Assembly: GCF_000617925.1 (NCBI RefSeq) | Contig: NZ_BAMT01000014.1 | Span: 1 to 64,000, forward strand | Source: Methylobacillus glycogenes JCM 2850 | GTDB taxonomy: Bacteria; Pseudomonadota; Gammaproteobacteria; Burkholderiales; Methylophilaceae | Length of the DNA: 64,000 nucleotides | Reading direction: 5' to 3' | Shown here: one piece after another, positions 7,611 to 31,865 of the stretch | Layout of the letters: each line of letters begins with the position of its first letter | Position numbering within the stretch: position 1 is the first letter of the stretch | Position numbers and translations under genes: made by a program | Notes under the pieces: model-generated | What the model was told of the DNA's origin: nothing | The model's database searches: none | The model's input: the letters and a program-made list of their open reading frames with translations, nothing else

Positions 7611-7657
7611 CCCCTTGGTTCGTAGCCAAGTACTCTATCCAGCTGAGCTACGGGCGC
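7581..7657 (-). tRNA. tRNA-Arg (anticodon ACG)
   Basis: The reverse strand gives a 77-base tRNA with encoded CCA. It has a 7-bp acceptor GCGCCCG/CGGGCGC, a standard D-loop (AGCTGGATAG), anticodon loop CTACGAA with ACG, and a T-loop GTTCGAATC. The A discriminator is present. The 3' end is the integration target of the serine recombinase element, which overlaps it on the opposite strand and leaves the tRNA intact. A perfect TATAAT box lies at 7671-7676 upstream. Confidence 0.97.
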
Positions 7658-11370: not shown

Positions 11371-11752
11371 TGCGTAAGACCTCGAACTGGTTGCCTACGT
11401 CTAGCCTGCCCAATGCGGCATAACAATGTATTCATGTTTTACACCAGGCCTGGGGTTGAGGTTGAGACCGCTGGTGAATGTGCCAGCAATCCATATGATT
11501 AATTACTGTTACCGCTTGGTATTACCTCTTGGTATGACCTTGCCAGAGATGCAATAGCCACAAGCACTTGAGAGCTCAGGCATTTTAGCGAGTTGTCATA
11601 GTCTATGACAATCAGCATAGTGGACATTAGCTAGCTGGCTAGAGTTGCATGCTGACGGGCTTGTATTTTCAAGCCCGGGCTAAGCGCCCCGCGTGCAATA
11701 AAAAACCCGCCGCAGCGGGTTTTTTATTGCAGTGTTTTTGTTGCAGTTCTGC
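11371..11752. other. Intergenic region upstream of the hybrid kinase
   Basis: Contains the promoter region of the kinase (no clear consensus boxes found) and, at its right end, the terminator of the neighbouring PEP-CTERM gene. No further coding frame or RNA is supported. Confidence 0.4.
11694..11731 (-). terminator. Strong intrinsic terminator, possibly bidirectional
   Basis: A 17-bp inverted repeat whose GC core is AACCCGC/GCGGGTT, with A-run and T-run on both sides, so it can act on either strand. It sits just downstream of the PEP-CTERM gene ending at 11753. A near-identical copy follows the next PEP-CTERM gene (12865-12898). Confidence 0.9.
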
Positions 11753-12646
11753 TTACTTGAACTTGGCATTGCCACGACGACGTGCGGCAAAGCCCAGCAT
11801 GCCCAAGCCAGCCAGCAACATGGCATAAGTGCCTGGCTCTGGAACAGCCGCAACGGTCAGGCCGTTGATAGTGCCTATGAACAAGCTGGTTTGTGTGGCT
11901 GCACCAGTGGCCAGGTCTATTGAGAACAGGCCAGTCTTCAGCAAGCCATCATCCCAGTTGAAAGCAGCATAAGCGCTGCCATCAGCCAGAATCTCAAAGC
12001 CATTGCCACTCAACACATCCACGCCCAATGGGCCAACATTGCTCAATGTTGGGTTGTTGAAACCAGTGCCAGTGAAGGACAAAGAGTTGTCAGTGCTGTT
12101 GACGTAATACAAGCCAGTGCTACCTGGGGCAGAGGCAGAGCTAGGGTCTGAATTGGTGTAAGCCACGCCAGAGAAACCAGCAGAGATGGAAGTAGCCACG
12201 GTTACCGCGCCAGTCAACACGTTGATAGCGTAATTGTCACCCGTGTTGCTCACCAGACGCAGCGAAGCGTTAGGAGTGCGATCTGCCACTGGGTTGAAAT
12301 CCAGGCCATAACCCTTGCTGGAGGAGATGATGTCGCTGGATAAGGCTGCAACAAAGGTGCTGGCGCCAGTGCTGGCGTCTATGGTGTAAATCTTGTTGCT
12401 GGTGCTGATGCCGTAGATCTGGTTGTTGGATGGACGCAGATCTATGCCAATGAAGGACTCACCTGCCGCAGCACCAGTAATGGTCTTGAAGGAGGTGGTG
12501 TCTATCAGAGTGCTTGAGCTATCAAAAATGCCGATCTGGTTATTGCTGTTAAGAGCAACTAGGCTGGCAGCGTTAGCGGAAATGCTCACCAGGCCTAGTG
12601 CCAGGGTGGCGGTAATAGCAGAAAACAGGGGGGTACGCTTGAACAT
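11753..12646 (-). CDS. PEP-CTERM protein with DUF4394-like repeats
   Basis: This encodes 297 aa with a signal peptide (LALGLVSISANA) and a propeller-like extracellular region with recurring NNQIYGI, TNKIYTID, GLYYVNSTDN and GLFSIDLATG strands, the pattern of DUF4394. The tail is a complete PEP-CTERM sorting signal: VPEPGTYAMLLAG, hydrophobic helix, then ARRRG. Proteins of this type are processed by exosortase at the cell envelope and are linked to exopolysaccharide. The start is the ATG with AAGGAA just upstream rather than the earlier in-frame ATG. It forms its own unit with a dedicated terminator. Confidence 0.88.
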   Translation of the reverse strand: MFKRTPLFSAITATLALGLVSISANAASLVALNSNNQIGIFDSSSTLIDTTSFKTITGAAAGESFIGIDLRPSNNQIYGISTSNKIYTIDASTGASTFVAALSSDIISSSKGYGLDFNPVADRTPNASLRLVSNTGDNYAINVLTGAVTVATSISAGFSGVAYTNSDPSSASAPGSTGLYYVNSTDNSLSFTGTGFNNPTLSNVGPLGVDVLSGNGFEILADGSAYAAFNWDDGLLKTGLFSIDLATGAATQTSLFIGTINGLTVAAVPEPGTYAMLLAGLGMLGFAARRRGNAKFK

Positions 12647-12864
12647 AATATTTCCTTGATATTGGGTTGGTAAGGACATGCTCATACGCCTAGCTTATAG
12701 GTCTAGGTGTTAGCTATTATGTATATGTTAAGGAATGTTAGCACTAGGCCAATTGGACTAAGTGTACAGTTGAACTATTTTTAAAATCAGTCACCTAGTG
12801 TTGCTATACAGACAAAATCTGACATCAAAAAGTCACAAATGCTGTATACGCAGCAAGCTGTAGA

Positions 12865-12898
12865 CAATAAAAAACCCGCCGAAGCGGGTTTTTTATTG
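12865..12898 (-). terminator. Intrinsic terminator, near-identical to 11694-11731
   Basis: A 15-bp inverted repeat with ACCCGC/GCGGGT core, GAA-type loop and flanking A/T runs. It is 45 bases downstream of the PEP-CTERM gene that ends at 12943 and shares almost the entire sequence with the terminator of the other PEP-CTERM gene. Confidence 0.9.
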
Positions 12899-12942
12899 AC
12901 ATGAACCTGACACAGGCTCAAATCATAGTCTTTGCTTAAATA

Positions 12943-13473
12943 TTAAGCAGAAAACTTGGAGCGGCTACGTGCAGCGAAGCCAACCAGGCCAAGGCCCAGT
13001 GCCAGCATGCCGTATGTGCTTGGCTCAGGGACTGCAGCGGTCAGTGCGATGCTGCCGTTGTAGTTGCTGGAAGCAGTGTTGGTGCCAACAATGTTGATCC
13101 AGTAAGTAGTAGGAGCAATAGCTTGAGCTGTCAGACCACCGAAAGCCAGCTTAGGCAAGAAGTTATTCACTTCGCCAGCAGCTACCAATGTAGTTTGGTC
13201 AGCTGCGTACAGGTCGAAAGCAGAGAAGGAAATACCAGTGGTGCTAGTTGCGCTGATGCTGGCAACCAGGTCACGGTAACCGTCGATGGTGAAAGAGATC
13301 CAGTGGCTGAAGTCGCCAGGTGCTGGGGACTGATGTTCGAAAGTGTAGTTTTCGTTGTTGGCAGCAGGATTGGTGTCGCCAGAGATTACTGGGTTAGCTT
13401 GTGCAGTTGCTGCAGCACCGATCAAGGAAACTGCCAGCAGAATGGCCTTCAAATTCATTGCGTTCATATTCAT
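12943..13473 (-). CDS. PEP-CTERM exported protein
   Basis: This encodes 176 aa with an N-terminal signal peptide (ILLAVSLIGAAATAQA), a beta-rich body with the FSAFDLY motif near residue 90 that recalls the FxDxF PEP-CTERM family, and a sorting tail VPEPSTYGMLALGLGLVGFAARSRS. It is expected to be exported and cut by exosortase. Three ATG codons lie near the start (codons 1, 3, 6); which is used is undecided. The gene has its own terminator. Confidence 0.85.
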   Translation of the reverse strand: MNMNAMNLKAILLAVSLIGAAATAQANPVISGDTNPAANNENYTFEHQSPAPGDFSHWISFTIDGYRDLVASISATSTTGISFSAFDLYAADQTTLVAAGEVNNFLPKLAFGGLTAQAIAPTTYWINIVGTNTASSNYNGSIALTAAVPEPSTYGMLALGLGLVGFAARSRSKFSA

Positions 13474-13891
13474 TACCCCGGGGAAAGTTAGTTTAGTTGG
13501 TCAAGCTTCAGCTTGTCTCTTAATGTTGCTTGCTGCATGAGCCTAGATGAACTTGCAGGTGGAGAATAAGAGATGGGTCAGATAACCACAATAGCCCGGA
13601 TAGACTAATGCCCGTATTGAACTAAACCTCGGTGTTGTTGAGCCATCACTACCTGTGTTGATGAGCCATCAGTATGTTATTCATTTTGCTACGTGGGCAG
13701 CACTTATACCTGCCGCAGTACCTACAACACTTTGCCGCAGTTTGCCGCAATAGGCGTATGAGAATCAATCAAAGTCATTATTTCATTGTTTACTGGCAAA
13801 GCAGTTTAGTTAATTACAAACAATCACTTATTTCACTTGCCTTTGGCGGGCTAAACGCCTAAATTCACAGCCCTTAAGGGGGGAATTCATC
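13474..13891. other. Intergenic region with a 23-base duplicated segment
   Basis: This divergent spacer serves the PEP-CTERM gene on the left and the MEDS gene on the right. It contains a tandem duplication (13632-13677) and several TGCCGCA repeats around 13711-13749. A strong AAGGGGGG Shine-Dalgarno lies before the MEDS start. No coding frame is convincing. Confidence 0.45.
13632..13677 (+). repeat. Two-copy tandem repeat, period 23
   Basis: GTGTTG-T/A-TGAGCCATCA occurs twice, 23 bases apart, differing at few positions. It could be a paired binding site for a regulator of the divergent genes. Confidence 0.5.
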
Positions 13892-14518
13892 ATGACAGGC
13901 TTTACACTCGCAGGCACGCCGCTGACGGAACATTTTCATGTCTGCGCCTTTTTCAACAGCAAGGCCGATGAATATGATGTTTTGCTGCCGTTTTACGCCG
14001 AAGCGCACGGCCAGGGTGAGAAAACCCTGCATCTGGTGAACCCGGAAAACTTCAACGCCCACAAGCAAAAACTAGCGGATTTTGGCATGCCAGTGGATGC
14101 GCTGGAACAAGCCGGGCAGCTGGAAATCCAGACCTGGGAACACTCCTACCTAGCGGCCGAGGGCAAGTTTGAGCGCAATAGCATGCTGACCAATCTGATA
14201 GATTCGCGCAATGCCGCTATTGAGAACGGCTTTCCACGTTTGCGCGTGGTGGGCGATATGGATTGGGTGTTTTTGCAGGATATGGATTTACGCGGCATAT
14301 TGTCTTACGAGGCCGAGGTGAACGAGTTTCTCATGGTCAACAAGCAGCCTGCAGTCTGCGTTTACGATATCGCCAAGCTCTCAGGCTCTATGATGATGGA
14401 CCTGTTGCGCACCCATCCCCTGACTCTGGTCAACGGTGTGGTGCAGGAAAACCCCTTCTACACGCCAGCCTTGGAAATGCTTGAGGAACTGCGTACCCGC
14501 TCACCAGAATACGTATAG
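13892..14518 (+). CDS. MEDS-domain sensor protein
   Basis: This encodes 208 aa matching the MEDS (methanogen/methylotroph, DcmR sensory) domain: an N-terminal HFHVCAFFNSKADEYDVLLPF block, a RecA/KaiC-like core, GDMDWVF near 130, and VCVYDI near 160. In DcmR the domain senses C1 compounds such as dichloromethane. There is no DNA-binding domain here. The gene is directly followed, with 2 intervening bases, by a hybrid histidine kinase, so it probably feeds a signal to that kinase. A very strong Shine-Dalgarno precedes it. Confidence 0.82.
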   Translation: MTGFTLAGTPLTEHFHVCAFFNSKADEYDVLLPFYAEAHGQGEKTLHLVNPENFNAHKQKLADFGMPVDALEQAGQLEIQTWEHSYLAAEGKFERNSMLTNLIDSRNAAIENGFPRLRVVGDMDWVFLQDMDLRGILSYEAEVNEFLMVNKQPAVCVYDIAKLSGSMMMDLLRTHPLTLVNGVVQENPFYTPALEMLEELRTRSPEYV

Positions 14519-14520
14519 GC

Positions 14521-16152
14521 ATGGACGGGATATTCCCACCACTCAAGCTGGTCACAGCCTCCGTGCCTAAGCCGGAGGCTGACCTCAACAGCGATTTTGC
14601 CAAGAGCCTGCGTGACCTGATGGGCCTGATGGCCTTGCCTGGCTTATGGATAGGCCGCGATGGTCAGGGCATTTTGCAACTCACCTTTGAGGCCATAGAG
14701 CGCACCCTGCCTTTACGTTTTATCTATTCCCAGGTGCTGCTGGAAGCCCCCAGCCCCGTCAACTTATTGATGTGGGATAGACGTTGGGAGTCAGGCGAAC
14801 AAGCCTGGGCCCAGGGGCTACAGGCCGTAGTAGACACCCAAGTATTTGAGGGCAAGCCTTATGAGCAAATAGTCCGGGGTGAAAAGCTCAATATCATCAG
14901 GCTTAGCCTGGGCTATGGAGCAAGCGCGGGTAAAATCTGGTTTGGCTCAGACCAGCCTGGTTTTCCTACTATTGCCAACCTGGCGTTTATCCGTGCCGCC
15001 ATCACCCTGGCAGGCACAGGCATACTCACTGCCAAGGCCCATCAGGAGGCAGAGCGTGCCAATCGCGCCAAGGATGAGTTTATGGCCATCCTCGGCCATG
15101 AGCTGCGCAACCCGCTGGCGCCCATCATGATGTCGCTGGATATCATGCGCTTTAAAAACAATGGTGAACTGCCCAAGGAATTGAACGTTATCGACAGGCA
15201 GTCCAAGCATTTGTCCCGGCTGGTGGATGACCTGCTGGATATCTCACGCATCACCAGTGGCAAGGTGCATCTTAAATCTGAACTGGTCAGCCTCAATGAT
15301 GTGCTGGCCAGGGCCATAGAAAACTGCACGCCCCTGCTCAATGAAAAACGCCACCATCTCTCCAAGTCTTTGCTCGCTGATGATCAAAGCTATGTGCAAG
15401 GCGATGAATATCGCTTGATCCAGATTTTCACCAACCTGCTCAACAATGCTGCCAAATTCATGGGCGCAGGCGGTGCCATCGTCATCACCTCAAGACGCAG
15501 TGGCAATTTCATCGAGATTGATATTCACGATCAAGGGCCGGGCATTGCTGCGGCACTGCTGCCTACCGTATTCAATATGTTTGAGCAGGGCAGGCAAACG
15601 CTGGAACGCTCCAAGGGTGGCCTGGGCATAGGCCTGGCCGTGGTCAAAAGCCTGGTGGAATTGCATCAGGGCAGGGTGCAGGTAGAAAGTGTGGAGGGGC
15701 AGGGCGCCACATTCTCCGTAATACTGCCATTACCAGCGCAGCGCATACCCACACCCTCAGCCGCCAGAGTTACCCCGCTGCAACGCAGTGAGCGCACCCT
15801 GCTGATTGTGGATGATAATGAAGATGCCTTGCTGGCCCTGGCAGCATATCTGGGCCTGATTGGCTACCACATCCTCACCGCCACAACGCCAGAAGCGGCC
15901 TTGCAGCATGTGGCGAAAAGCCAGCCAGAAGTAGTGATACTGGATATTGGCCTGCCCGGCATGTCAGGCTATGAACTGGCGCAGGAAATCCAGCTACGCA
16001 CACGGGTCAAACCCTATCTGATTGCGCTCACAGGCTACGGCCAGGAAAGTGACAAACTCAAGTCCAGGCAGTATGGCTTTGACGCCCATCTGACCAAACC
16101 CATCTCTTTCGACCTGCTCAATACTGCACTGGCCCAGGCAGTTTCAGACTGA
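14521..16152 (+). CDS. Hybrid histidine kinase partnered with the MEDS protein
   Basis: This encodes 543 aa. The N-terminal 175 residues have no clear domain and are probably the input module. Then come the H-box FMAILGHELRNPLAP (about 190), the DDLLDISRITSG helix, N-box NLLNNAAKF, G boxes DQGPGIA and GGLGIGLAV, and a C-terminal receiver with DDNEDA, phospho-Asp in VVILDIGLPGMSG and a Lys near LTKPIS. No transmembrane segment is visible, so it is soluble. It shares architecture and sequence blocks with the kinase at 9792-11370, suggesting duplication. Its output partner is not in the window. Confidence 0.88.
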   Translation: MDGIFPPLKLVTASVPKPEADLNSDFAKSLRDLMGLMALPGLWIGRDGQGILQLTFEAIERTLPLRFIYSQVLLEAPSPVNLLMWDRRWESGEQAWAQGLQAVVDTQVFEGKPYEQIVRGEKLNIIRLSLGYGASAGKIWFGSDQPGFPTIANLAFIRAAITLAGTGILTAKAHQEAERANRAKDEFMAILGHELRNPLAPIMMSLDIMRFKNNGELPKELNVIDRQSKHLSRLVDDLLDISRITSGKVHLKSELVSLNDVLARAIENCTPLLNEKRHHLSKSLLADDQSYVQGDEYRLIQIFTNLLNNAAKFMGAGGAIVITSRRSGNFIEIDIHDQGPGIAAALLPTVFNMFEQGRQTLERSKGGLGIGLAVVKSLVELHQGRVQVESVEGQGATFSVILPLPAQRIPTPSAARVTPLQRSERTLLIVDDNEDALLALAAYLGLIGYHILTATTPEAALQHVAKSQPEVVILDIGLPGMSGYELAQEIQLRTRVKPYLIALTGYGQESDKLKSRQYGFDAHLTKPISFDLLNTALAQAVSD

Positions 16153-16194: not shown

Positions 16195-16629
16195 CTAAGT
16201 TCTCCAGGGGTGCTTGGGTAAATCGCGACTATCGCAGGCTTCCGCACCCGCCAGTGCCACCAGATGGTCGTTATCCACCGTATCGCCGCTAACGCCTATG
16301 GCACCTACCAGCATGCCTGCCTCATCCACAATCGGTAAACCACCAGGGAAGGTAATCAGGCCATCATTGGAGTGCTCAATGCCATAAAGCGGCTGGCCGG
16401 GTTGAGAAAGTTTGCCTATCTCGCCCGAGGGCATGGCAAAGAAACAGGCGGTCTTGGCTTTCTTGATGGCCACATCAATGCTGCCTACCCAGGCATCATC
16501 CATGCGCGAGAAGGCCTTGATATTGGCACCGGAATCCAGCACGGCGATACAGCTTTTTACACCTAGCGCCTCGGCCTTGAGGATGGCTTTTTCAATAATA
16601 TTGATGGCTTGTTGATGACTGACGTGCAT
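16195..16629 (-). CDS. GlcG/HbpS (DUF336) family protein
   Basis: This encodes 144 aa with the family pattern: [54 protein letters not shown], and [20 protein letters not shown]. Members bind haem or small organic molecules and are often encoded beside PQQ or glycolate dehydrogenases. An AAGGAG Shine-Dalgarno precedes the start. It lies about 100 bases behind ctaG on the same strand, so it is likely the last gene of the quinoprotein/oxidase operon, perhaps handling haem or PQQ-linked products. The precise role is unknown. Confidence 0.82.
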
Positions 16630-16733
16630 GGCAAATCTCCTTAGGGTTTAAACAACATGGTGGAAACAACAGGGTTTGAACAACTTGATCACTGAAATAC
16701 ACCCTGAAAAGCACACTGAAAAACAAAACAGCA

Positions 16734-17705
16734 TCATTGCAGGCGCTTACGCGCCAGTAAGGCCGAGGCGCTATTAATGCTGTCGTCATGCGCATAGTGA
16801 CCATGGGTCTTGTGCAGCAGCTTGTAGCACAGCAGCAGGGTCACGATCAGGTAAGACAAACCACCGGGTATCCACATGATGAGCCCCCCCAGTTGCTGAT
16901 CCTGCAAAGCGGCTTGCAGGCCACCGCTGGTGATGATGTAGCTGTGATACCAGACCTGGCTGGAAAACGTCAGCAATGCCCCGAGCAAAGCAGTGTGTAC
17001 CGCGGTGGTAAACAGCGATATCAGGCCGAGGATTGCCGGGCTGCGCTGGCTATTCATGCGCAGCAGCGACCACCAGAACAGCAGGGCAGAAAAGAAAAAG
17101 CTCAAATGCTGCAAGTCATGCAGCCAGCTACGATGCAAGGCATTTTCAAACATGGTGGGTACATGCCAGCCCCACAACACCAGCGCATGGATGGCCCAGG
17201 CACTGAATGGGTGAGTAATGCCTTGCCAGATACGGGCAAACAGCGGATAGCGCGTTAGTTTATGCAAGCGGGTCACGCGCCTTCCAGGCATGGCCCAGGC
17301 CCACACCGCCAGTGGCCGCGCCAGCACCAGCAAGGGGGCTGCCACTATCATCAGCAATTCGTGCTGCACCATGTGCATGGAGAAATACTCATTGCCCAGG
17401 CTATCCACTGGCGTAAGCAGGGCAAGCACCAGACTGGCCCAGCCCGCGAGAAACAGCTGTAGGCGCTTGCGCGTATTGCCGCTGAGTTGCGGGCGTTTCT
17501 GCCGCATGCGCTGTATGCCCAAGAGGTAAGCCAGCAGGCTGATCAACAGTGGCAGCCCTACCCAGTAATCCAAGGCAAATTGCAGCCAGGGGTTGCCATG
17601 CTCATGCCTGACAGCGGCATGCGCCCAAGCCAAGCCCGGTAGCCACGCCAGCGCAAAGAGCAAGCTGAGACGCACGCCAATAGCCAGACTAGGCCAGCGC
17701 TTCAT
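16734..17705 (-). CDS. ctaG: Cytochrome c oxidase assembly protein, caa3-type CtaG
   Basis: This encodes 323 aa with about seven membrane helices and conserved His residues (HMVQHELLM, WHVP, HDLQHLSFF, HTALLG, YHSYI), typical of the caa3_CtaG family that helps insert copper into the oxidase. The ATG at 17705 is chosen because it overlaps the stop of the preceding gene as ATGA; a longer in-frame start exists but has no support. It sits at the end of the oxidase genes, which fits an assembly role. Confidence 0.88.
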   Translation of the reverse strand: MKRWPSLAIGVRLSLLFALAWLPGLAWAHAAVRHEHGNPWLQFALDYWVGLPLLISLLAYLLGIQRMRQKRPQLSGNTRKRLQLFLAGWASLVLALLTPVDSLGNEYFSMHMVQHELLMIVAAPLLVLARPLAVWAWAMPGRRVTRLHKLTRYPLFARIWQGITHPFSAWAIHALVLWGWHVPTMFENALHRSWLHDLQHLSFFFSALLFWWSLLRMNSQRSPAILGLISLFTTAVHTALLGALLTFSSQVWYHSYIITSGGLQAALQDQQLGGLIMWIPGGLSYLIVTLLLCYKLLHKTHGHYAHDDSINSASALLARKRLQ

Positions 17706-18112
17706 ATGCAGGCATCCAGCAACAGCACGGGCAACCACTGAATCACAATTACCAGCAGAAAAAATAGGCTCAGCATCAGCCCTGCCAGCGCCATGAATTG
17801 CCGTGGCGGCATTTCGCTTTCGCCCTCGCTGCCGCGTTTCTGGCTATTGGGGTTTTCGTTAATGCGCTCCAGCGTGCGGTGCAACTTTAGGTTGTGCCAG
17901 CTCAGATAAGCACTGACCGCACTGAAAACAAATGCAATGGCGGTGGCAAGGTGCACGGGCAGCAAGTGCTCAGCGCGGCAAGACCAGTCCAGCAGCGGGT
18001 AAGCCACCGCCAATTGCATGCTCCAGCTTAAGGGGCCAGCCAGTATGCATAGCCACAGCAGCGCCAGCGCAAAAGCCGGGTCATGCTCGGCCATTTTTAT
18101 CGGGTCGCGCAT
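17702..18112 (-). CDS. Small membrane protein of the oxidase operon
   Basis: This encodes 136 aa with three to four hydrophobic helices: about 12-38, 52-72 and 108-132. No named family is recognised. It lies between coxC and ctaG, overlapping ctaG by four bases, 18 bases after coxC. Possible roles are a small oxidase subunit or an assembly factor. The central loop is charged and glutamate-rich (SQKRGSEGESE). Confidence 0.75.
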   Translation of the reverse strand: MRDPIKMAEHDPAFALALLWLCILAGPLSWSMQLAVAYPLLDWSCRAEHLLPVHLATAIAFVFSAVSAYLSWHNLKLHRTLERINENPNSQKRGSEGESEMPPRQFMALAGLMLSLFFLLVIVIQWLPVLLLDACI

Positions 18113-18130
18113 AGGGCTTCCTTTGCGGGT

Positions 18131-18769
18131 TTATTCATTCCATATCCTTGAACCCAGGTAGATGGTCATGAACAGCGGAATCCACGCAGCGGCGACAAAA
18201 TACCAGTACAAACCGTTGACCGTGACCGCAATGCGTTTGTCCGGGGTGAAATAGCCTTGGCGTGCCAGGATAATCACCACCAAGGTTTTGAGAATAACGG
18301 CGATGACATGCGTGCTATGAAAACCAATCATGAGCCAGACCATGGAGCCGTAGGCATGGCTATCCCAGCGGAAATCCACATGCAGGGCGTACTCATAAGC
18401 CTTGATGCCCAAGAACACCAGCGCCAGCGCAATGCTGAGGATGGGCAGGGTGGCCAGCGGTTTGGCATTGCCACGCTTGAACGCGCGGTCAGTGAGGTAG
18501 ACCGGCACCATGCTCAGCATCAGCACAAAGGTAGAGAGTATGGGCAGCATTAAATCGGGTGGCGTGGTGCCAGAAGGTGGCCACACTGCATGGTTGCCTT
18601 GCAGGTAGAAAAAGCTGGCGATCAGGGTGGCCACTACCGTACCTTCCACCGTCATCAAGCCGACTATGCCCCACCATAATGGCGAGCGTGACTCAAAGCT
18701 GTAATCCGGCAACTGGCTGACATCAATATCGTGCGGGGTACGCGGTGTTGTCTTGTGAGCCACACTCAT
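18131..18769 (-). CDS. coxC: Cytochrome c oxidase subunit III
   Basis: This encodes 212 aa with five or more membrane helices and the COX3 pattern WWGIVGLMTVEGTVVATLIASFFYL, GFHSTHVIAVI and NGLYWYFVAAAWIPLFMTIYL. Its ATG overlaps the coxA stop as ATGA, so the longer open frame upstream is ignored. It packs against subunit I and supports proton uptake. It is shorter than the classical 260-aa form because the first two helices are missing, as in many caa3 enzymes. Confidence 0.92.
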   Translation of the reverse strand: MSVAHKTTPRTPHDIDVSQLPDYSFESRSPLWWGIVGLMTVEGTVVATLIASFFYLQGNHAVWPPSGTTPPDLMLPILSTFVLMLSMVPVYLTDRAFKRGNAKPLATLPILSIALALVFLGIKAYEYALHVDFRWDSHAYGSMVWLMIGFHSTHVIAVILKTLVVIILARQGYFTPDKRIAVTVNGLYWYFVAAAWIPLFMTIYLGSRIWNE

Positions 18770-20679
18770 GCTGCCGCCCTCCCTGATCTGGGCCATATCC
18801 AGCCTGTGATGGCAGCAAAGCACAGCAGAAAGCCGATCAGGGGAATGGCCAGATGCAGCATCATGCCAGCAAAGGTCAGCGCCACGGCCACTGCCAGCCA
18901 GAACGGCCAGGGTGAAGGCCCGGGCAGGGGCTGGCGTGCTTCGGGGTGAGATTCGAGTATGGAGGTGAGCAATATCTCTCTGCGGTCTGAACGTATGCCG
19001 TGCACCACGGCGTTCTGTTCCAGCCCGCCAGTGCCAGACCACAGCGGGTAGCGGCTATCGACAATGCGGATATGGCGGAAATTATAAGAGGGAGGTGGCG
19101 AGCTGGTGGCCCACTCCAGGGTGTCTGCATTCCAGGGGTTGTCACCTGCGCTTTTGCCACGCTTGAGGCTGATCAGGGCATTCAATAATGTCATAACAAA
19201 GCCCAAGGCCAAGATCACGGCACTAAGGCTGACAAACAGGTTGAGCTGGTTCCAGCCCAGGCCGTCGATATAGGTATAGACCCGGCGCGGCATGCCCTGC
19301 AGGCCAAGCTGGTGCATGGGGAAGAAGGTCAGGTTGAAACCGATGAAGGTGACCCAGAACGTCCACTTGCCCAGACGCTCACTCATCATGCGGCCCGTGA
19401 ATTTGGGGTACCAGTAATGCACGCCGCCTATGAGCGGGAACAGCGCACCGCCCACCAGCACATAGTGAAAATGCGCCACCACAAAGTAAGTGTCGTGCGC
19501 CTGCATATCAAATGGCACCGACGCCACCATCACCCCGCTAAGCCCGCCTATGATGAAGATCAGGAAAAAGCCCATGACGTAGAGCATGGGGGTATCCATG
19601 CGTGGCTTGCTGCCCCATAGCGTGGCAATCCAGCAAAAAATCTGCACGCCGCTGGGGATGGCAATCATGGCGCTGGAGGCGGTGAAGAAGTTGGCCCCCA
19701 GCTGCGGCAGCCCGGCGGTAAACATATGGTGCACCCAGAGGCCGAAGCCGATAAACCCTATGGAGACAATGGAGAGGACGATAGGGATATAGCCGAAGAT
19801 GGGCCGTTGGGTGAAGGTGATGATGATGCTGGAAATCATGCCCAGCGCCGGGATGAAGATGATGTAGACCTCGGGGTGGCCGAAAAACCAGAACAAATGC
19901 TGCCACAGCACCGGGTCACCCGAGGCGGCCGTGAAAAACTGCATGCCTGCCATGCGGTCCAGCGCCAGCATCAGGCTGGCGATCACCAGCGGCGGTAGCG
20001 CAAACACAATCATGAACGACATCACTAGGATCGACCAGACGAAGATAGGCATGCGGTTGAGCGACATGCCAGGCACCTTGCACTTGAAGATGGTGGCGAT
20101 GAGTTCTATGGCGGCCACCAGGGCGGAGATTTCCATAAAGGTGATCACCGTGGTGTAGAAATCCAGCCCCAGCCCCGGCGAGAAGGCCGCCCCGGCCAGC
20201 GGCGGATAGCTGAACCAGCCAGCATCAGGCGCGATATTCAAAAACAACGCGATATACATCATGATGCCGGCGATCAGGTAGATCCAGTAACCAAAGGCAT
20301 TGAGCCTGGGGAAAGTCATATCGCGCGTGCCCAGCATCAAGGGAATGATGTAGACCGCCACCCCTTCCATCACCGGGATGGCAAATAAAAACATCATGGT
20401 GATGCCGTGCATGGAGAAAATCTGGTTGTATAACTCCGGGCCCATCACGGTGTTTTCCGGCACCGCCAGTTGCCAGCGCATCAGCAGCGCGAGGATGACG
20501 CCCAGCAAAAAGAACACAAAGCCCGTGACAATAAAGCGCATGCCGATATTGGTTTGATTGACATGGGTAAACCAGGCAAAAAAACCGGGGGGCGAGGCCC
20601 AGGTCTGCTCCAGTTGCCGGGTTTCGGCGTCATAAGCCGGGTCTGGTATGGCGGAAGAATGAGGTGGGTGCATGGACAT
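18766..20679 (-). CDS. coxA: Cytochrome c oxidase subunit I
   Basis: This encodes 637 aa with 12 core helices and an extended C-terminal part with extra hydrophobic segments. Haem-copper ligands are visible: H91 (SMHG) for haem a, H268 and Y272 (GHPEVY, the cross-linked His-Tyr), H317-H318 (WVHHMF) for CuB, and H403/H405 (AHFHYV) for haems a3 and a. It reduces oxygen to water and pumps protons. The C-terminus carries a soluble stretch and a final helix pair (about 570-630). It starts 4 bases after coxB and overlaps coxC by 4. Confidence 0.95.
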   Translation of the reverse strand: MSMHPPHSSAIPDPAYDAETRQLEQTWASPPGFFAWFTHVNQTNIGMRFIVTGFVFFLLGVILALLMRWQLAVPENTVMGPELYNQIFSMHGITMMFLFAIPVMEGVAVYIIPLMLGTRDMTFPRLNAFGYWIYLIAGIMMYIALFLNIAPDAGWFSYPPLAGAAFSPGLGLDFYTTVITFMEISALVAAIELIATIFKCKVPGMSLNRMPIFVWSILVMSFMIVFALPPLVIASLMLALDRMAGMQFFTAASGDPVLWQHLFWFFGHPEVYIIFIPALGMISSIIITFTQRPIFGYIPIVLSIVSIGFIGFGLWVHHMFTAGLPQLGANFFTASSAMIAIPSGVQIFCWIATLWGSKPRMDTPMLYVMGFFLIFIIGGLSGVMVASVPFDMQAHDTYFVVAHFHYVLVGGALFPLIGGVHYWYPKFTGRMMSERLGKWTFWVTFIGFNLTFFPMHQLGLQGMPRRVYTYIDGLGWNQLNLFVSLSAVILALGFVMTLLNALISLKRGKSAGDNPWNADTLEWATSSPPPSYNFRHIRIVDSRYPLWSGTGGLEQNAVVHGIRSDRREILLTSILESHPEARQPLPGPSPWPFWLAVAVALTFAGMMLHLAIPLIGFLLCFAAITGWIWPRSGRAAA

Positions 20680-20683
20680 GGGC

Positions 20684-21759
20684 TTATTCCAGACTGAGCA
20701 GATATTCCACCAGGTCAGCCAGATCTTCCCCGGCCATCATGGTGGCGGGCATATGGCTGCCAGGCTTGATACTCTGCGGACTTAAAATCCACGAGGCGAG
20801 ATAGCTGCATTGTTTTCTATGGAGCCCGCAGCCAGGGATTTGCGCGAACCGATATGTGTAAGGTCGGGGGCTACGCTCGCCATGGCGGTGGTGCCACGTA
20901 TGCTGTGGCACATGACGCAGCTAGACTTGAGAAACACTGCACGGCCACGTTGCTGGGCCTCAGTGCTGGGCTCACGCGCCGGGCTGGCTTGTTGCTGCAG
21001 CCAGCCCGCGTAATCATCCTGGGTCATGGCCTCAACATGAAACGCCATCTTGGCGTGCTGCTTGCCGCAGAACTCGGTGCATTGCCCACGGTAACGCCCG
21101 GGCTTGCTGGCTTGTACCCAGGTGATATTGGTTTTGCCGGGAATCATGTCGGTCTTGCCGTTCAACTGCGGTATCCAGAAGCTATGGATGACATCGCTGG
21201 CTTCCAGCGCAAACTTCACCGGGGTATCTACAGGAATACGGACTTCATTGGCGGTTTTGGCGATGATATTGCCAGCCTGGTCGAGGTAATCAATTTCCCA
21301 CCACCATTGATGCCCGGTCACGCGTATGGTCATGGCGTCCTCAGGCATGGGCGCTACCAATTCGCGGTTGATACCAGCACTGGAGATAACAAACACCGTG
21401 AGTATCAGCGCCGGAATCACCACGCCGGAAACCAGCACCAGATTGCGGCTCTGCCTGAAGGTCAACGGCTGGGGTTCAGCGGCTATTTTGCCTTTGTACA
21501 GCGCTATGAAAATCAGCACTGCCACCGCTGCCAGAATCAGCCCGCCGCCTATCAGCATGCCCCAGAATAATTTGGCAATGCTGCCTGCCAAAGGGCCTTG
21601 CGGGTCCAGGCTGGACTGGCTGCTGGCATTGGCGTGCACCGCAGTTGAGGCCAGCAGCGCCCAGCCTGCCAACAGGGTTTTGTTGATGCCATGGCGTATG
21701 GCAGCCCATGGCTGGCTGGCATGCGCCTGTAATGGCCTGAGGCTAGTGCGCAAGCTCAT
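20684..21759 (-). CDS. coxB: Cytochrome c oxidase subunit II fused to cytochrome c (one break)
   Basis: This encodes 358 aa after restoring one missing base near 20804. It has a signal sequence, two membrane helices (about 55-90 and 105-130), a CuA domain with H192, C227, C231, H235 and M238 (GQCTEFCGKQHAKM), and a C-terminal haem c domain with CVMCH at 281-285 and a later Met (SHMPATM). The fusion defines a caa3-type oxidase that accepts electrons from membrane-linked cytochrome c. The break falls after the haem site, in AGGCT read as AGCT, and would remove the last 40 residues. It overlaps the cytochrome c gene as ATGA. Confidence 0.93.
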
Positions 21760-22415
21760 TGCCTGGCCGCCGCTGGCTCATCAGCATGGTTTTCTTCATG
21801 CGTATCCGCATTCTGGTCATCATGCCTAGCGGCATCATGCTCAATATGTTCTGTATGGCTGGCTTCATCCTGCAAGGGCTTGCTGGTGGCACCTTGCGGC
21901 AGGGCATCATCCAGCCCGCCTAGTGAACGGACATAGGCCACAATCTTCCAGACTTCTTGCTCAGGTATTTTGCCGTGGAAGGCGGGCATGCCATTGGGCC
22001 TGCCTTCCATAATGGTGGTGAAGATATTCTCGGGTGCGCTGCCATAAATCCAGGCGGCATCTATCAGTGGTGGGCCCATGCCACCACCGCCATTGGCGTG
22101 GCAACCCGCGCAATTAAACCAGGCATACAAGCGCTTGCCCTCGTTGATGGCATGGCGGCTATTGATATAAGGGTGGTCGCCCGTGCGGGCGTCCTCGGTG
22201 CCGGGGCCAAACTCCGTCATCCGCGTCACTGCTTGTGCGGATGCGGGCGGCTGATCGCGCAGGGCAGCTTGATCCTCGCAGCCCGCGAGCAACATGAGGG
22301 CCAGACCTAGCGTACCAAGCTCTGCCAGCCTGCGCTGCCAGGTGCATGCTTGGGTGCATGCTGGGGTGGATAATTGAACGCCTGCTGGTAAGGCCTTAAG
22401 GAAGCTTGAATACAT
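21756..22415 (-). CDS. Lipoprotein cytochrome c with His/acidic tail
   Basis: This encodes 219 aa with a lipobox at about 43-46 (LAGC, lipid-modified C46), one haem c site CAGCH at 102-106 and a likely Met ligand (GMPAF, M143). The tail (about 185-213) holds six His and many Asp/Glu, an unusual metal-binding-like extension. It overlaps the quinoprotein gene upstream by 20 bases and coxB downstream by 4. Position and haem suggest that it takes electrons from the PQQ dehydrogenase and passes them to the caa3 oxidase at the outer face of the inner membrane. Confidence 0.9.
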   Translation of the reverse strand: MYSSFLKALPAGVQLSTPACTQACTWQRRLAELGTLGLALMLLAGCEDQAALRDQPPASAQAVTRMTEFGPGTEDARTGDHPYINSRHAINEGKRLYAWFNCAGCHANGGGGMGPPLIDAAWIYGSAPENIFTTIMEGRPNGMPAFHGKIPEQEVWKIVAYVRSLGGLDDALPQGATSKPLQDEASHTEHIEHDAARHDDQNADTHEENHADEPAAARQ

Positions 22416-24300
22416 ACAACTGTCCTCCCTTGTCGGTATGCGCGGGCAAATCTTTCATGGCGTTGGCAAAGCCCAGCGCGGCTGTGCCATCACGCGCATC
22501 CAGCCCGCCAGAGACGATGGCCCCTGACCAGCCGCCCACTCCGGCAAAAATCGCCACATATTGCTGGCCCTGTTTATCGCGGAAGGTCACAGGCTGGCCG
22601 ACAATGCCCGAGCCCAGGCGAAACTGCCACAGCAGCTTGCCGTCATTGGCATCCAGCGCCTTGAACCATCTATCCATGGTGCCGTAGAACACCACATCGC
22701 CCGCGGTGGCCAAAGTGCCGCTCCACACCGGGAAGCGTTCATTGATGCTCCAGGCTTTTTTGCCTGCCACCGGATCCCAGGCGCTGTAAACCCCACGATG
22801 GCCGCCCGGCCCGGCAAACATTTTCACGTCCGAGCCCACATAAGGCGTGCCAGCAATGTAATTGGCCTGGGTGCCCAGCATGTCCATGCACAGGTTGTTA
22901 TGCGGCATGTAGATCAGCCCGGTTCTGGGCGAGAAGGCCGAAGGCTGCCAATCCTTGCCGCCGGGGGCAGCGGGGCAGATGTTGTGTACGGTTTTATTGG
23001 TGCCCGGGCGTTTTTCCTTGATCTTGCGCAGTTGCCCGGTGTTGAGGTCTACGCCATCGGTAACATTGACCGGAACATAAGTATTGGCAGACAGTACTTC
23101 GCCCGTGCCCCTGTCCATGACATATACATGGCCGTTTCTTTCTGGCCGTACCAGCGTCTTGCGCTGCTTGCCGTTGACGGGCAGGTCCAGCAGCAGGCTT
23201 TCGTTGACGCCATCGTAATCATAGAGATCATGCGGCTCTACCTGATAGGCCCACATGGCGCGGCCATCAGCCGGGCGGCGCGCAAATACCGTCAGCGTCC
23301 ACTTGTTGTCGCCGGGGCGTATATCCGGGTTCCAGGGGCCGGGGTTGCCTGTGCCGTAATAAATCAAATCCAGTTCCGGGTCATAGGAAAGCCAGCCCCA
23401 CACCGTGCCGCCGCCTATTTTCCACAGGTCGGGCGGCCAACTGCTCACGCCTAAGTCCTTGCCTTGATCCTGCTTGTAAAAAGGCTTGAATTCCTCACCT
23501 ATCAGCACTTCCTTATCTGGCCCGGTGCTGTAGGCGGTCCAGAGCAGGGTGCCATCCCGAATATCCAGTGCCTTGAGCCAGCCGCGCACGCCCATTTCAC
23601 CACCGCTATTACCCACCAGCATTTTGCCCTTGACCACCAGCGGTGCCATGGTCATGGTTTCGCCGCGCTTGAGGTCACCCACGCGGGTTTTCCAGATTTC
23701 CTCGCCTGTCTTGGCATTGAGGGCAATGGCGTGGTTATCCAGCGTGTTGAAAAACAGCCTGCCATCCTGATACACCAGCCCACGGTTGACCACATCGCAA
23801 CAGGCCATGCCTTGTGATTCCTGGTGCGTGGTGGGTTTATATTCCCACTTCTTGCTGCCATCCAGCGCCAGTGCCACCACGGTATTGGGGTAGGGGGTAA
23901 TGATATACACCGTCTCGTCGACAAACAGCGGTGCACCTTCGTGGCCTGGCGTCAGGCCAGTGGCGTAGCTCCAGGCCAGTTGCAGTTGCTGCACATTGTC
24001 TTTGTTGATCTGCTGCAGGCTGCTGTAACGCGTGCTTGCGTAGTTTTTGGCGGGCATGGTCCAGGTGTCATCATCGCCTTGCGGCAGCCATTCGGGCAGG
24101 GTGGCTTTGCCATCTATGCGTTTTTGCTCACTAGCTTGTGGGCTGGTGCTAGCTTGTACCCGGCTGTCATGTTGCAACAGCTCCTGCCTGGGGTTTTCGC
24201 TGTCCGGCCCCGAGCAGGCTGACACCATCAGCAGTAGCATGGCCCCGCTGATGCCAACACGAAAATGATTGATGCAACAGTCAATATCCCACACCGGCAT
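22396..24300 (-). CDS. PQQ-dependent alcohol dehydrogenase, lanthanide-type signature
   Basis: This encodes 634 aa: a lipoprotein-type signal (MLLLMVSAC, C29) and an eight-bladed quinoprotein propeller. The adjacent-Cys pair is C167-C168 (GMACCDV). The metal ligands are E235 (GGEMG), N319 (GTGNP) and D361 (YDYDGVN). The spacings of 84 and 42 residues are those of MxaF. The residue two after the catalytic Asp is D363, the extra acidic ligand of lanthanide-dependent XoxF/ExaF enzymes; calcium MxaF has Ala there. It oxidises an alcohol in the periplasm and here passes electrons to the next gene's cytochrome. AAGGGGGG precedes the ATG. The substrate (methanol, ethanol or another) cannot be told. 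Confidence 0.9.
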   Translation of the reverse strand: MPVWDIDCCINHFRVGISGAMLLLMVSACSGPDSENPRQELLQHDSRVQASTSPQASEQKRIDGKATLPEWLPQGDDDTWTMPAKNYASTRYSSLQQINKDNVQQLQLAWSYATGLTPGHEGAPLFVDETVYIITPYPNTVVALALDGSKKWEYKPTTHQESQGMACCDVVNRGLVYQDGRLFFNTLDNHAIALNAKTGEEIWKTRVGDLKRGETMTMAPLVVKGKMLVGNSGGEMGVRGWLKALDIRDGTLLWTAYSTGPDKEVLIGEEFKPFYKQDQGKDLGVSSWPPDLWKIGGGTVWGWLSYDPELDLIYYGTGNPGPWNPDIRPGDNKWTLTVFARRPADGRAMWAYQVEPHDLYDYDGVNESLLLDLPVNGKQRKTLVRPERNGHVYVMDRGTGEVLSANTYVPVNVTDGVDLNTGQLRKIKEKRPGTNKTVHNICPAAPGGKDWQPSAFSPRTGLIYMPHNNLCMDMLGTQANYIAGTPYVGSDVKMFAGPGGHRGVYSAWDPVAGKKAWSINERFPVWSGTLATAGDVVFYGTMDRWFKALDANDGKLLWQFRLGSGIVGQPVTFRDKQGQQYVAIFAGVGGWSGAIVSGGLDARDGTAALGFANAMKDLPAHTDKGGQLYVFKLP

Positions 24301-24819
24301 AGCCCCCCTTGGCTGAATAAGCTGCGACAGAATGCATCGCGTGCTGGCAAGCTACTGCCGGCAAGTATTTTGAATGAGGGTTGGTGGCGAGATACAGGCT
24401 TAAGTTGCAGAAATATTTTTATTGATATTTCAATGTAAGGAAATGTTAAGATTTTTTGCGCTTATGATGAGGTTATGCAAGTGGCTGTAATAAAAAAGGA
24501 AAATCCAGCTGGGAATTTTCCATGTTCTATTCTTGAGGTTTTTCCTAGGTATCTTTCACTGACAGGCATTTCAGCGCAGGTCTGACAGGGAGAAAGTGCC
24601 AGACTCGCCAAAACGATAGCTCTTTTGCATGCAGGCTACAGGTTTATAGATGATAAAATCCAGGCAATTTCAGGCCTTGCCTATCCCGTCCCAGCAGTTG
24701 ACACCCATGTACACCATTCACTTTTTTGGTGGTGGTTTTATTGATATCACCCTGGTTTTACGCCTGATGCCATGTCATGTGTGATGCCGCATTAAGCCTG
24801 AGTTTTGGAGCGCCCCATT
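24301..24819. other. Divergent intergenic region, quinoprotein operon / sulP
   Basis: This 519-base spacer must hold the promoters of both the quinoprotein operon and the SulP gene. I see a hairpin (24498-24521) but no clear consensus promoter and no coding frame. Confidence 0.45.
24498..24521. other. Inverted repeat in the divergent spacer
   Basis: GGAAAAT and ATTTTCC enclose an inner CCAGCTGG palindrome, giving a symmetrical 24-base element. It lacks a T-run, so an operator or RNA hairpin is more likely than a terminator. Confidence 0.4.
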
Positions 24820-26359
24820 TTGTTTTCAGCTTTTAGCCGTTTAAACCGTTTTAACTTCCACGAAATCAAAACCAATCTTTTAAGTGGCTTGACGGTCGCC
24901 TTGGCCATGGTGCCCGAGGCCATTGCCTTTGCCTTGATCGCGCATGTTTCACCGCTGACGGGCTTATATGCTGCGGTGCTGGTTTGTTTTATCACCGCTG
25001 CCTTTGGTGGCCGACCCGGCATGATCTCTGGTGCGGCGGGAGCGCTGGCGGTGGTCATGGTGGCGCTGGTGGTGCAGCATGGTGTGGAATATCTATTTGC
25101 CACCGTGGTGCTGATGGGGCTGCTGCAAATGCTGTTTGCGGTGGCCAAGCTAGGTAAATTCATACGCATGGTGCCGCATCCGGTGATGCTGGGCTTTGTT
25201 AACGGCCTGGCCATTGTCATTTTTCTGGCGCAATTCAATCATTTCAAAGTGCTGGATGAAACAGGCGCCAGAGTCTGGATGCCTAGCAATGCACTCTATG
25301 TGATGGGCGGGCTGATAGTGTTGACCATGGCCATCATTTATCTGTTGCCACGCCTGACCAAAGCCATCCCTGCCACACTGATTGCCATTTTGCTGGTATC
25401 TGCGCTGGTGGCGGGTTTCAATATCGATACCAAAACCGTGGGTGATTTGGGCTCTATCGCCGGCGGCTTGCCCAGCCTGCATATTCCGCAGTTGCCACTG
25501 AACTGGGAAACCCTGCGCATTATTGTGCCCTATGCCTTGATTCTGGCGGCCATAGGCCTGATAGAAACGCTGCTGACGCTGAACCTGATTGATGAAATGA
25601 CCAATACCCGTGGCCGCCCCAACCGTGAAGCCTTGGCACAGGGCGCGGCTAATGTGGTGACGGGGTTTTTTGGCGGCATGGGCGGTTGCGCATGATAGGG
25701 CAGAGCATGATTAACATTGGCAACCAGGCCAGGCTGCGTTTGTCCGGCATTGCCACTGCCGTGTTCTTGCTGGGTTTTATTCTGTTTGCTTCGCGCTGGA
25801 TAGAGATGATTCCCCTGGCGGCGCTGATAGGCGTGATGTTTGTGGTTTCGCAAAAAACCTTTGCCTGGGGCAGCTTCAGGTTATTCGGCCAAGTGCCCAA
25901 GGCTGACATTTTTGTGGGTTTGTTGGTGGCAGGCATTACCGTGATTTCTGACCTCGCCATTGCGGTGATCACAGGCGTGATCATTTCCGCGCTGGTGTTT
26001 GCCTGGGAGCATGCCAAGAAAATCCAGGCCAAGACCACGCTGGATGTAGATGGCAAAAAAATCTATGCGCTGGAGGGCACACTGTTTTTTGCCTCAACGT
26101 CAGCTTTTCAATCCCTGTTCTCTCCCGCGGATGATCCGCAGCAGGTGGTGATTGATTTCAAAGCCGCCAGGGTGGTCGATCACTCGGCGCTGGCGGCGAT
26201 AGACACGCTGGCAATGAAATACCAGGCAGCTGGCAAAACCCTGCGCCTCAGGCATTTAAGCAGGATTGCCGGGAGTTGCTGCACAATGCCCAGGGCATTA
26301 TTGAGATAGATTTGCTGGAAGACCCGCAATACCGCGTGGCAGATAACGCCCAGAGTTAA
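24820..26359 (+). CDS. SulP-family anion transporter with STAS domain (two breaks)
   Basis: This encodes about 513 aa after restoring two missing bases (near 25690 and 26261). It has ten or more membrane helices with the SulP pattern (GLTVALAMVPEAIAFALIA, GRPGMISGAAGA, GMGGCAMIGQSMINI), then a STAS domain (about 415-500) with FASTSAFQSLF and VIDFKAARVVDHSALAAID. It would import sulfate, bicarbonate or a dicarboxylate across the inner membrane. The start is a TTG preceded by GGAG at 9 bases; an upstream TTG at 24805 is the alternative. The first break falls inside a highly conserved helix, so this is probably an error and not a pseudogene. Confidence 0.83.
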
Positions 26360-27971: not shown

Positions 27972-28112
27972 TCAAAGCAGGTGATTCAAGAGTATCAGCA
28001 AATACATGGATAGCAAGACGAAGAACATCAAGGGGATCAGCCATAGGGCGTGTTCATGTTCAAGCCATCTGGTAATGGACTGTTTTAATTTGCTCATGCG
28101 TGCACGCGGCAT
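27972..28112 (-). CDS. Tiny single-pass membrane protein of receptor cassette 1
   Basis: This encodes 46 aa. An amphipathic N-terminus with WLEHEHALW is followed by one hydrophobic helix (LIPLMFFVLLSMYLLILL) and NHLL. It aligns over its whole length with the 47-aa protein at 34452-34595: MP at the start, RWLEHE/QWLEHE, WLIPLMFF/WILPLTFF, LLNHLL/MLNRLY. The ATG at 28112 is preferred because it matches the paralogue start and has GAGG upstream; a second in-frame ATG is at 28097. It lies 9 bases after the corrected stop of the TonB receptor. Such a conserved tail gene could link the receptor to the ExbB/TonB machinery; function unknown. Confidence 0.7.
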   Translation of the reverse strand: MPRARMSKLKQSITRWLEHEHALWLIPLMFFVLLSMYLLILLNHLL

Positions 28113-28121
28113 GACATGGCC

Positions 28122-31100: not shown

Positions 31101-31791
31101 TAAAGCCGCGGTACTGCACATCCATCTGGAAAGGGTTGCCTTGGTAGTCGTTGACGGTGACCGATTGCAGTTTGCGGTTGAGCAGGTCGGCGATGCTGAG
31201 TGCGTTGGTTTCCTTGATTTCCTTGGCTGTAATGCTTTGCACATTGCCCGGTATCTGATCCTTGGTCAGCCCCAGCCCAGGCAAAGGCCCAACTTCATAA
31301 AAACGTTTGCCGCGTACCAGCACTTCATCCACACGTAATTGTTCTGATTTCGGCCCCAGGGCAGGCAGGGTTTTGTCTTCAATGGGGGCGGGGCGTAATT
31401 CGTAATTGCCCTGGCGGTCTGAGACCAGCTCCAGCCCTGTGCCTTGCAGCAGTTTGTCAAACGCCTCGTCTGGGCTGTAAACGCCTTTTAATGCGGCTGA
31501 GTTTTTGCCTTTGGTGATGTTGGGGTCATACACCAGGGGTTTGCCAGTTTTTTGCGAGAGTTTGTTGAGTGCTGCGCCCAGGCTGCCCGCAGGGATATCG
31601 TACTCCTTGCGGTTGCTGGGCAGGGTGGTGTTAAGGTCAGCGGCAGTGGCTATGCCATTAGCCAACAGCAGGCTACTAGCCAGCAGCAGGCTATTAATGC
31701 GCAGCATGTTAGTAGTGCGCAGCAGATTATTGCTCAGGCTGATGTGTGTGATTGATTGCGGATGTGCGCTCCGCTTGTGTTGATTGCCCAT
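28122..31791 (-). CDS. TonB-dependent receptor with STN domain, copy 1 (two breaks)
   Basis: This encodes about 1223 aa after restoring one base near 30403 and one near 28173. It has a signal peptide (about 29-51), an STN domain (about 65-115) that signals to FecR, the plug with GPLPGLGLTKDQIPGNVQSI and GGAFTIKTKDGF, and a long barrel ending in YEFRPQ. Uncorrected, it splits into two frames and the end is misread. It imports an unknown ligand across the outer membrane and controls its ECF sigma factor. It closely resembles the receptor at 34603-38105. GGGGAGAG lies before the start. The barrel contains large insertions relative to ordinary ferric receptors. Confidence 0.88.
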
Positions 31792-31865
31792 GAATCTCTC
31801 CCCGGAAATTGGATGCTTTGGGCAATGACGAACCAGAATGTAAAAGTGCTAGGTAAACCTGCTTA

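Follow-up and report, generated by a model that had tools for sequence, protein, structure and literature searches.

A predicted XoxF3-type methanol dehydrogenase clustered with a caa3-type oxidase and an EfgA-type formaldehyde sensor gene in Methylobacillus glycogenes

Eight genes on the minus strand of a 64,000-nucleotide stretch of the Methylobacillus glycogenes JCM 2850 genome (hereafter the window), reading in a single direction from position 24300 to 16195, probably constitute a self-contained methanol respiration module. In order, they encode a dehydrogenase, a cytochrome c, the oxidase subunits CoxB, CoxA and CoxC, a small membrane protein, CtaG and a homologue of the formaldehyde sensor EfgA. 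Our reading is based on gene content and order, on their conservation, on the correlated inheritance of dehydrogenase and oxidase, on the clade to which the dehydrogenase belongs and on the identity of EfgA. An initial annotation, made from the letters of the window, had described eight genes that overlap or nearly touch on one strand; families and junctions read from the sequence confirm this.

Gene content and layout

The first seven genes overlap or lie no more than 20 bp apart, provided that a frameshift in coxB is read through and an internal ATG is taken as the start of ctaG. The dehydrogenase gene (22396..24300) overlaps the cytochrome c gene (21756..22415) by 20 bp, and the latter overlaps coxB (20684..21759) by 4 bp. 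Four bp separate the coxB stop at 20686–20684, which lies in the shifted frame, from the ATG of coxA (also ctaD; 18766..20679) at 20679. coxA in turn overlaps coxC (18131..18769) by 4 bp, given a coxC ATG at 18769, the likely start of an open reading frame (ORF) that opens at 19042. After 18 bp follows the small gene (17702..18112), which overlaps ctaG (16734..17705) by 4 bp if the internal ATG at 17705, chosen by comparison with a sister sequence, is the start of an ORF that reaches 17738. A spacing of 104 bp separates ctaG from efgA (16195..16629). Seven of the eight genes match known families; the small gene matches none in Pfam or NCBIfam at an expectation value (E) of 0.001. The order, which the initial annotation had proposed to look for in other methylotrophs, is the same in three sister Methylobacillus genomes, and in view of this conservation and of the trees described below we rejected chance clustering. 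The nearest named loci are those of M. arboreus and M. caricis.

The dehydrogenase, which depends on pyrroloquinoline quinone (PQQ), scores above the TIGR03075 cut-off (629 bits), and its best match in the PDB is 4mae, XoxF of Methylacidiphilum. To place it we used 57 loci from a pattern-seeded scan with one genome per species, a sample skewed towards peptides of the window itself. The tree comprised the window sequence, 38 of the 57 loci, references for XoxF1, XoxF2, XoxF5 and MxaF, and the genome's own paralogues, of which one falls with MxaF, four form a separate group and a sixth, distant one is the outgroup. The window and 36 loci form one clade with no intruders (support 0.612 alone, 0.998 with the deeper sequence G022b), set apart from XoxF1, XoxF2, XoxF5 and MxaF, while L072 and L084 group with XoxF2. 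The lanthanide ligand set is E/N/D/D, and the extra aspartate two residues past the catalytic Asp occurs in all 37 clade members examined, the window included; the genome's MxaF-like paralogue has alanine at this position. These features identify the enzyme as a predicted lanthanide-type methanol dehydrogenase of the XoxF3 kind. The name XoxF3 was transferred to a tree that contained no labelled XoxF3 sequence, because published XoxF3 clusters share this gene content and these host phyla, and with regard to a census of Methylophilaceae (Huang 2018). In the accessible text of the census, XoxF4 and MxaF predominate, with three sequences assigned to XoxF3 and a few divergent ones. In one locus, L055, two tandem XoxF3-type copies (10001-13626; 59 and 57 percent identical to the window) lie on a single contig of a metagenome-assembled genome (MAG).

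The next gene encodes a single-haem cytochrome c (Cytochrome_CBB3, 3.9e-17), a predicted lipoprotein with an LAGC lipobox that recurs in the three sisters. Its match to MoxG/cytochrome cL is weak, at 44 bits against the MoxG equivalog cut-off of 147.8, and it is XoxG-like by position only. No xoxJ stands between dehydrogenase and cytochrome in the window, where the two genes overlap. An XoxJ-like motif occurs within 600 bp after the dehydrogenase in 32 of the 57 loci, six of these XoxF2-like; we did not treat xoxJ as defining, and the published clusters in the portion of PMC10875860 available to us vary in having it.

All three oxidase subunits match their families. CoxB exceeds the TIGR02866 cut-off, CoxA scores 702 bits against TIGR02891 (cut-off 670.75) and 506 bits against COX1, and the coxC ORF at 18131-19042 matches COX3 at 3.3e-17. 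A CuA subunit with a fused cytochrome c domain and a CtaD-type subunit I, the two features that define the type, are both present, so the oxidase is predicted to be of the caa3 type. The coxB ORF ends early at 20782, through a frameshift inside the fused domain: the CuA motif and CxxCH are in frame, and the remainder of the domain is in another frame. The domain is intact in all three sister genomes, and further genes of the window appear by eye to be split into overlapping frames. These comprise a histidine kinase, SulP, two TonB receptors and alaS (9792-11370, 24805-26309, 28094-31791, 45281-47458 and 52201-54630), as in an indel-prone assembly. Because other genes are split alike and the sister copies are intact, an assembly error in coxB is likely, though not proven, and genuine gene loss is disfavoured. 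CtaG (PF09678, 2.7e-59) is a putative CuB assembly factor.

The gene between coxC and ctaG encodes a membrane protein of 136 residues from an unnamed family. With a strict motif the protein is recovered downstream of coxC in 27 of 32 loci, and a looser scan yields a candidate in the other five. In an alignment of the window with 24 of 35 loci, C45 and C135 are each nearly invariant. L033 lacks both, and the short ORFs of L064 and L070, which stand outside the alignment, stop before the second cysteine. AlphaFold2 predicts three long helices (predicted local distance difference test score, pLDDT, 86.6) with both cysteines near helix ends; in this model both should face one side of the membrane, presumably the periplasm. 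When 25 members were compared with Pfam, no family was matched by more than two of them (best 8.8e-4, DUF4395, one member), and DUF420 (CtaM) was not among the matches listed, which cover 25 of 29 families. Comparison of folds turned up nothing more specific than common helical bundles (best Foldseek E 0.62; best VIA-align Z 10.3), and we draw no fold relation from it. Of 274 genomes of the class searched with a profile, eight contain the protein, including G138 and G204, where it sits beside oxidase genes. A protein at this position has been noted before, and the accessible text likens its model to vesicle-transport proteins (PMC10875860). Since its gene precedes ctaG, we suggest that it acts in oxidase assembly, perhaps in handling copper or thiols. 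The double-cysteine protein is thus a concrete candidate for an oxidase assembly step that has no assigned factor.

Linkage and joint inheritance of dehydrogenase and oxidase

Linkage between dehydrogenase and oxidase extends well beyond Methylobacillus. Among the 31 loci in which the dehydrogenase is flanked on each side by 8.5 kb or more, a coxA-like gene lies within 10 kb in 24, coxB in 23, coxC in 22, ctaG in 21 and a cytochrome c gene in 30. Order and strand vary: the dehydrogenase follows the oxidase genes in L033, and the genes are divergent in L069 and L080. Seven of the 31 lack coxA, and three of these are XoxF2-like, L072 and L084 by the tree and L076 (52 percent identity, not in the tree) by identity only. 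With these three excluded, 24 of 28 XoxF3-type loci have a coxA-like gene within 10 kb. The six XoxF2-like loci L072-L076 and L084, from Vicinamibacteria/Acidobacteria, show 52 to 53 percent identity, and all six have an XoxJ-like motif after the dehydrogenase and none a coxA match, some of the contigs being short. The gammaproteobacterial genome G331 contains two XoxF3-type loci (L137 and L138), each with its own coxA beside it, one of them divergent.

Among relatives, the two genes also tend to occur together. In a set of 120 relatives, close orthologues of dehydrogenase and CoxA occur together in G001, G002, G004 and G022, as they do in the window's genome. Four of the six same-genus genomes have both, and the other two, G003 and G005, lack both at the cut-offs applied. 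At greater distance, the two matches in G096 sit on separate contigs, and G076 has one to CoxA but none to the dehydrogenase. Distances in the dehydrogenase and CoxA trees correlate (r 0.54, 33 sequences), and also do so in a thinned set of 26 (r 0.39); in each case none of 9999 permutations reached the observed r. Both genes pair the window with Methylobacter (L032; distances 0.46 and 0.46) and Novimethylophilus (L043, on the same contig as G022) with Methylomicrobium (L045; 0.52 and 0.51). The window and Novimethylophilus belong to one family, and Methylobacter and Methylomicrobium are close relatives; the dehydrogenase/CoxA distances within families are larger, at 0.90/1.63 and 0.73/1.50. 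As the pairings of both genes agree with each other against taxonomy, the two genes moved together, at least there.

The strongest alternative is a plain caa3 oxidase that works with the bc1/cytochrome c pool as well, its linkage to XoxF3 reflecting co-regulation and joint transfer only. We regard this as a serious contender, if somewhat less probable than its opposite. Two observations argue for it. A cassette of coxBAC, the small protein gene and ctaG occurs without a dehydrogenase match in stretches of 12-14 kb from G138 and G204, and the CoxA tree has oxidases without XoxF3 linkage scattered among the linked ones, next to L053 and L069. These cassettes and unlinked oxidases indicate that the oxidase type is wider than the XoxF3 partnership and was recruited more than once. 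Other findings likewise weigh against a dedicated module: the two trees are correlated but not identical; four of the 28 XoxF3-type loci (L048, L051, L062 and L063) lack coxA; the genome holds four other COX1-family genes, one of them NorB-like, and six other PQQ dehydrogenase genes; and coxB is frameshifted in this assembly. Against a shared-pool oxidase stand the joint presence or absence in the six same-genus genomes, the correlation of the trees and the position of a cytochrome c gene between dehydrogenase and coxB in most mapped loci. The initial annotation had preferred a dedicated chain to the shared oxidase pool. That preference gains from the conserved linkage, the tree correlation, the joint presence or absence and one conserved upstream block (see below). 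The counter-case that the annotation itself named, relatives whose oxidase is unlinked, exists in part, in the four loci without coxA and the cassettes without a dehydrogenase.

The efgA gene and its association with the cluster

The initial annotation labelled the last gene GlcG/HbpS and considered its product a possible new accessory. The best solved match is instead EfgA of Methylorubrum extorquens (6bws, E 5.3e-57), to which the window protein aligns without gaps over all 144 residues, 94 of them identical; the four Methylobacillus proteins share 65 to 69 percent with EfgA. By comparison, EfgA-type proteins share 42 to 50 percent with three generic DUF336 proteins from the loci, and HbpS is given as 23 percent identical to EfgA in the accessible part of PMC8153426. 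The window protein starts directly at the DUF336 domain, which leaves no space for a signal peptide. The ligand residues K57, S114 and D121 are present; we rejected them as a marker because 10 of 11 generic DUF336 proteins have them too, and the assignment therefore rests on overall identity and the tree. On these grounds the gene product is an orthologue of EfgA, the formaldehyde sensor of methylotrophs, and not a new accessory.

Formaldehyde binding and growth arrest by EfgA are published for M. extorquens, and Mfla_1444 of Methylobacillus flagellatus, 67 percent identical, complements an efgA mutant, according to the text available of PMC8153426. In G004, an efgA with 97 of 144 identities (67 percent) is located at the end of the same cluster. 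The accessible text of PMC3023750 gives Mfla_1451 as a PQQ-dependent enzyme, and eight genes, from efgA through the dehydrogenase, would span Mfla_1444 to Mfla_1451. If G004 is indeed M. flagellatus KT, the efgA already proven functional would therefore be the efgA of this operon.

An EfgA-type match at E 1e-20 occurs in 8 of 61 genomes searched. All five Methylophilaceae that carry the XoxF3 cluster have efgA in or beside it; in Novimethylophilus it is flanked by coxC and ctaG. Methylomicrobium sp. RS1 (L045) and the MAG L070 have efgA after ctaG, on the opposite strand. In the efgA tree, L043, L045 and L070 group together as a subclade (98.1/88); the dehydrogenases and CoxAs of these three loci share one part of their trees with those of L047 and L080, whose flanks hold no EfgA-type gene. 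The Methylobacillus efgA is 76 to 81 percent identical to unlinked Methylophilaceae copies versus 70 to 76 percent to this subclade. The Methylobacter loci that come closest by the dehydrogenase tree yield no match to DUF336. EfgA-type genes thus adjoin the cluster in two XoxF3 subclades, likely, though not proven, as two separate associations; the efgA tree does not show separate origins, because its deep branches are poorly supported (15.8/42). Among relatives of G331, EfgA was found in none of 115 genomes, an uninformative count for a group with no known positive.

That efgA adjoins the cluster by chance or history alone, with a promoter of its own, is rather unlikely. Consistent with this view are the 104 bp gap before efgA, the weak deep branching, and EfgA-type genes away from the operon in three Methylophilaceae (G023, G026 and G033). 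Moreover, only 5 of the 57 loci (L031, L043, L045, L070 and L079) contain an EfgA-type gene, at 70 percent or more to the window; in another 10, the flanks hold nothing nearer than a DUF336 gene at 27 to 45 percent. On the other side stand the adjacency in five of five carriers in the family, its recurrence in another arrangement in L045 and L070, and the well-supported efgA subclade, whose dehydrogenases also lie close together.

Upstream sequences bear on the same question. In an alignment of the window with its three sisters, a block of repeated TTACAT-like words (24401..24449, minus strand), a probable regulatory site or promoter region, is conserved upstream of the dehydrogenase, whereas only the ribosome-binding site looks conserved upstream of efgA. 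This difference favours a single promoter. Sigma-70-like sites show no excess (5 found versus a shuffle mean of 5.5). Terminator-like sites number 22 on both strands (shuffle mean 8.5, standard deviation 3.2); ten of them lie on the minus strand inside operon genes, which speaks against one uninterrupted transcript, and none lies on the minus strand in the gap between ctaG and efgA.

A minus-strand hairpin with a T run is found at 24521-24498, about 200 bp upstream of the dehydrogenase. It has no Rfam match at E up to 1, and the alignment contains no matching sequence in the sister upstream regions, on which no hairpin scan was run; a leader RNA was rejected on these grounds.

On the far side of efgA, 42 bp away, a gene with a MEDS domain (DcmR-type, sensory) and a hybrid histidine kinase gene (13892-16152) converge on it. 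They are possibly a sensor pair responsive to one-carbon compounds.

Proposed electron path and comparison with known systems

We propose that a lipid-tethered, lanthanide-type XoxF3 would oxidise methanol in the periplasm and pass electrons to the lipoprotein cytochrome c, thence to CoxB, through its haem c and CuA, and finally to CoxA. The latter would reduce oxygen and pump protons, and neither quinone nor bc1 would be needed. CtaG and the three-helix, double-cysteine protein would mature the oxidase. The last gene, if transcribed with the others, would yield a cytoplasmic sensor, EfgA, such that the amount of the brake tracks the amount of the formaldehyde source. The fullest form of this proposal combines XoxF3, cytochrome and caa3 oxidase as one membrane path, a co-expressed EfgA brake, a coupling that arose at least twice and a small protein that is a new copper or thiol assembly factor. 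As a combination it is tentative, and we would not expect every part of it to hold.

That dehydrogenase, lipoprotein cytochrome and oxidase assemble into a stable physical supercomplex is unlikely. The overlapping genes, from which similar translation is expected, are consistent with one, as are the lipoboxes of both dehydrogenase and cytochrome in the window and its sisters; that of the dehydrogenase, identified by eye, is VSAC with Cys29. Elsewhere the dehydrogenase lipobox is rare, which argues against a general complex: a regular expression finds it in 8 of 57 loci, 5 of them convincing by eye, a lower bound given that some N-termini are cut off or missed (L079 has one and L044 resembles one). 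Furthermore, Ser follows the lipid Cys of the window dehydrogenase. By the sorting rule of Escherichia coli, Ser at this position could direct a lipoprotein to the outer membrane.

A dehydrogenase acting mainly on another alcohol or on formaldehyde is equally improbable, although the accessible text of PMC10875860 states that XoxF3 is without published biochemistry: the best-scoring solved relatives are methanol dehydrogenases, and the neighbouring efgA is of a type that senses formaldehyde.

A cluster of this kind matters for two reasons. At a granite and soil site, 340 of 411 methanol dehydrogenase sequences belonged to XoxF3 in the data accessible from PMC10875860, and Methylobacillus would be a cultured genus that carries a compact XoxF3 system. 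The efgA link also supplies a genomic context for the formaldehyde sensor, and it raises the testable possibility that methylotrophs adjust the amount of sensor in step with an enzyme that makes formaldehyde.

Two further regions of the window are worth recording. A large serine recombinase gene (5994-7657) ends over a tRNA-Arg; to its left, G+C is low and a Rep-like gene scores below cut-off. The region looks like an element integrated at the tRNA gene. Before the operon, at 28094-39845, two similar STN/TonB-type receptor regions are each followed by FecR and sigma factor-like genes (by eye), possibly for the uptake of metal or a lanthanophore.

Clusters of XoxF3 with CoxI-III, CtaG, CytC, XoxG and XoxJ have been described from Acidobacteria, Gemmatimonadetes and others (PMC10875860). 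According to the available text of that study, Keltjens 2014 had already pointed out cox and ctaG next to xoxF3. In a 2024 review, in the part open to us, the legend to a map of a xox cluster also mentions cox and CtaG. In Methylosinus, the XoxF3 protein rises with cerium, as stated in the accessible text of PMC12482762. The window resembles the described clusters in its XoxF3-type dehydrogenase, cytochrome c, coxI/II/III and ctaG, and in a protein between coxIII and ctaG, given as 110-130 residues in the accessible text of PMC10875860; it thus has the cox genes, small protein and ctaG beside xoxF3 that characterize them. A whole chain in one operon, to which the initial annotation had drawn attention, is therefore already in print apart from efgA. 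The window differs from the published clusters in having no xoxJ between dehydrogenase and cytochrome, a dehydrogenase that is a predicted lipoprotein, and efgA after the cluster. The present analysis adds this version, which lacks xoxJ and has a predicted lipoprotein as dehydrogenase, the association with efgA, the evidence that dehydrogenase and oxidase genes were transferred jointly, and the cysteine pair in the small protein. We found no mention of the efgA link in the accessible text of open-licence literature on EfgA or HbpS together with xoxF or methanol dehydrogenase.

Three characterized systems delimit the components further. XoxF2 of Methylacidiphilum fumariolicum (4mae) shares 52.2 percent identity and the lanthanide ligand set with the window dehydrogenase but belongs to a separate clade. 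EfgA of M. extorquens (6bws, 6c0z) has the same length, the direct DUF336 start and the ligand residues of its window counterpart, as far as the text available of PMC8153426 describes them; that text finds no conserved genomic context for efgA, whereas in the window the gene ends a methanol dehydrogenase–oxidase cluster. In the Bacillus caa3 locus, as given in the accessible text of PMC9145763, a CtaG gene likewise stands at the end of the oxidase cluster, whereas the window adds a dehydrogenase and a cytochrome before the oxidase and a three-helix protein before ctaG. This last protein, with three predicted helices, contrasts with CtaM, a DUF420 protein described in the same text with four or five membrane segments.

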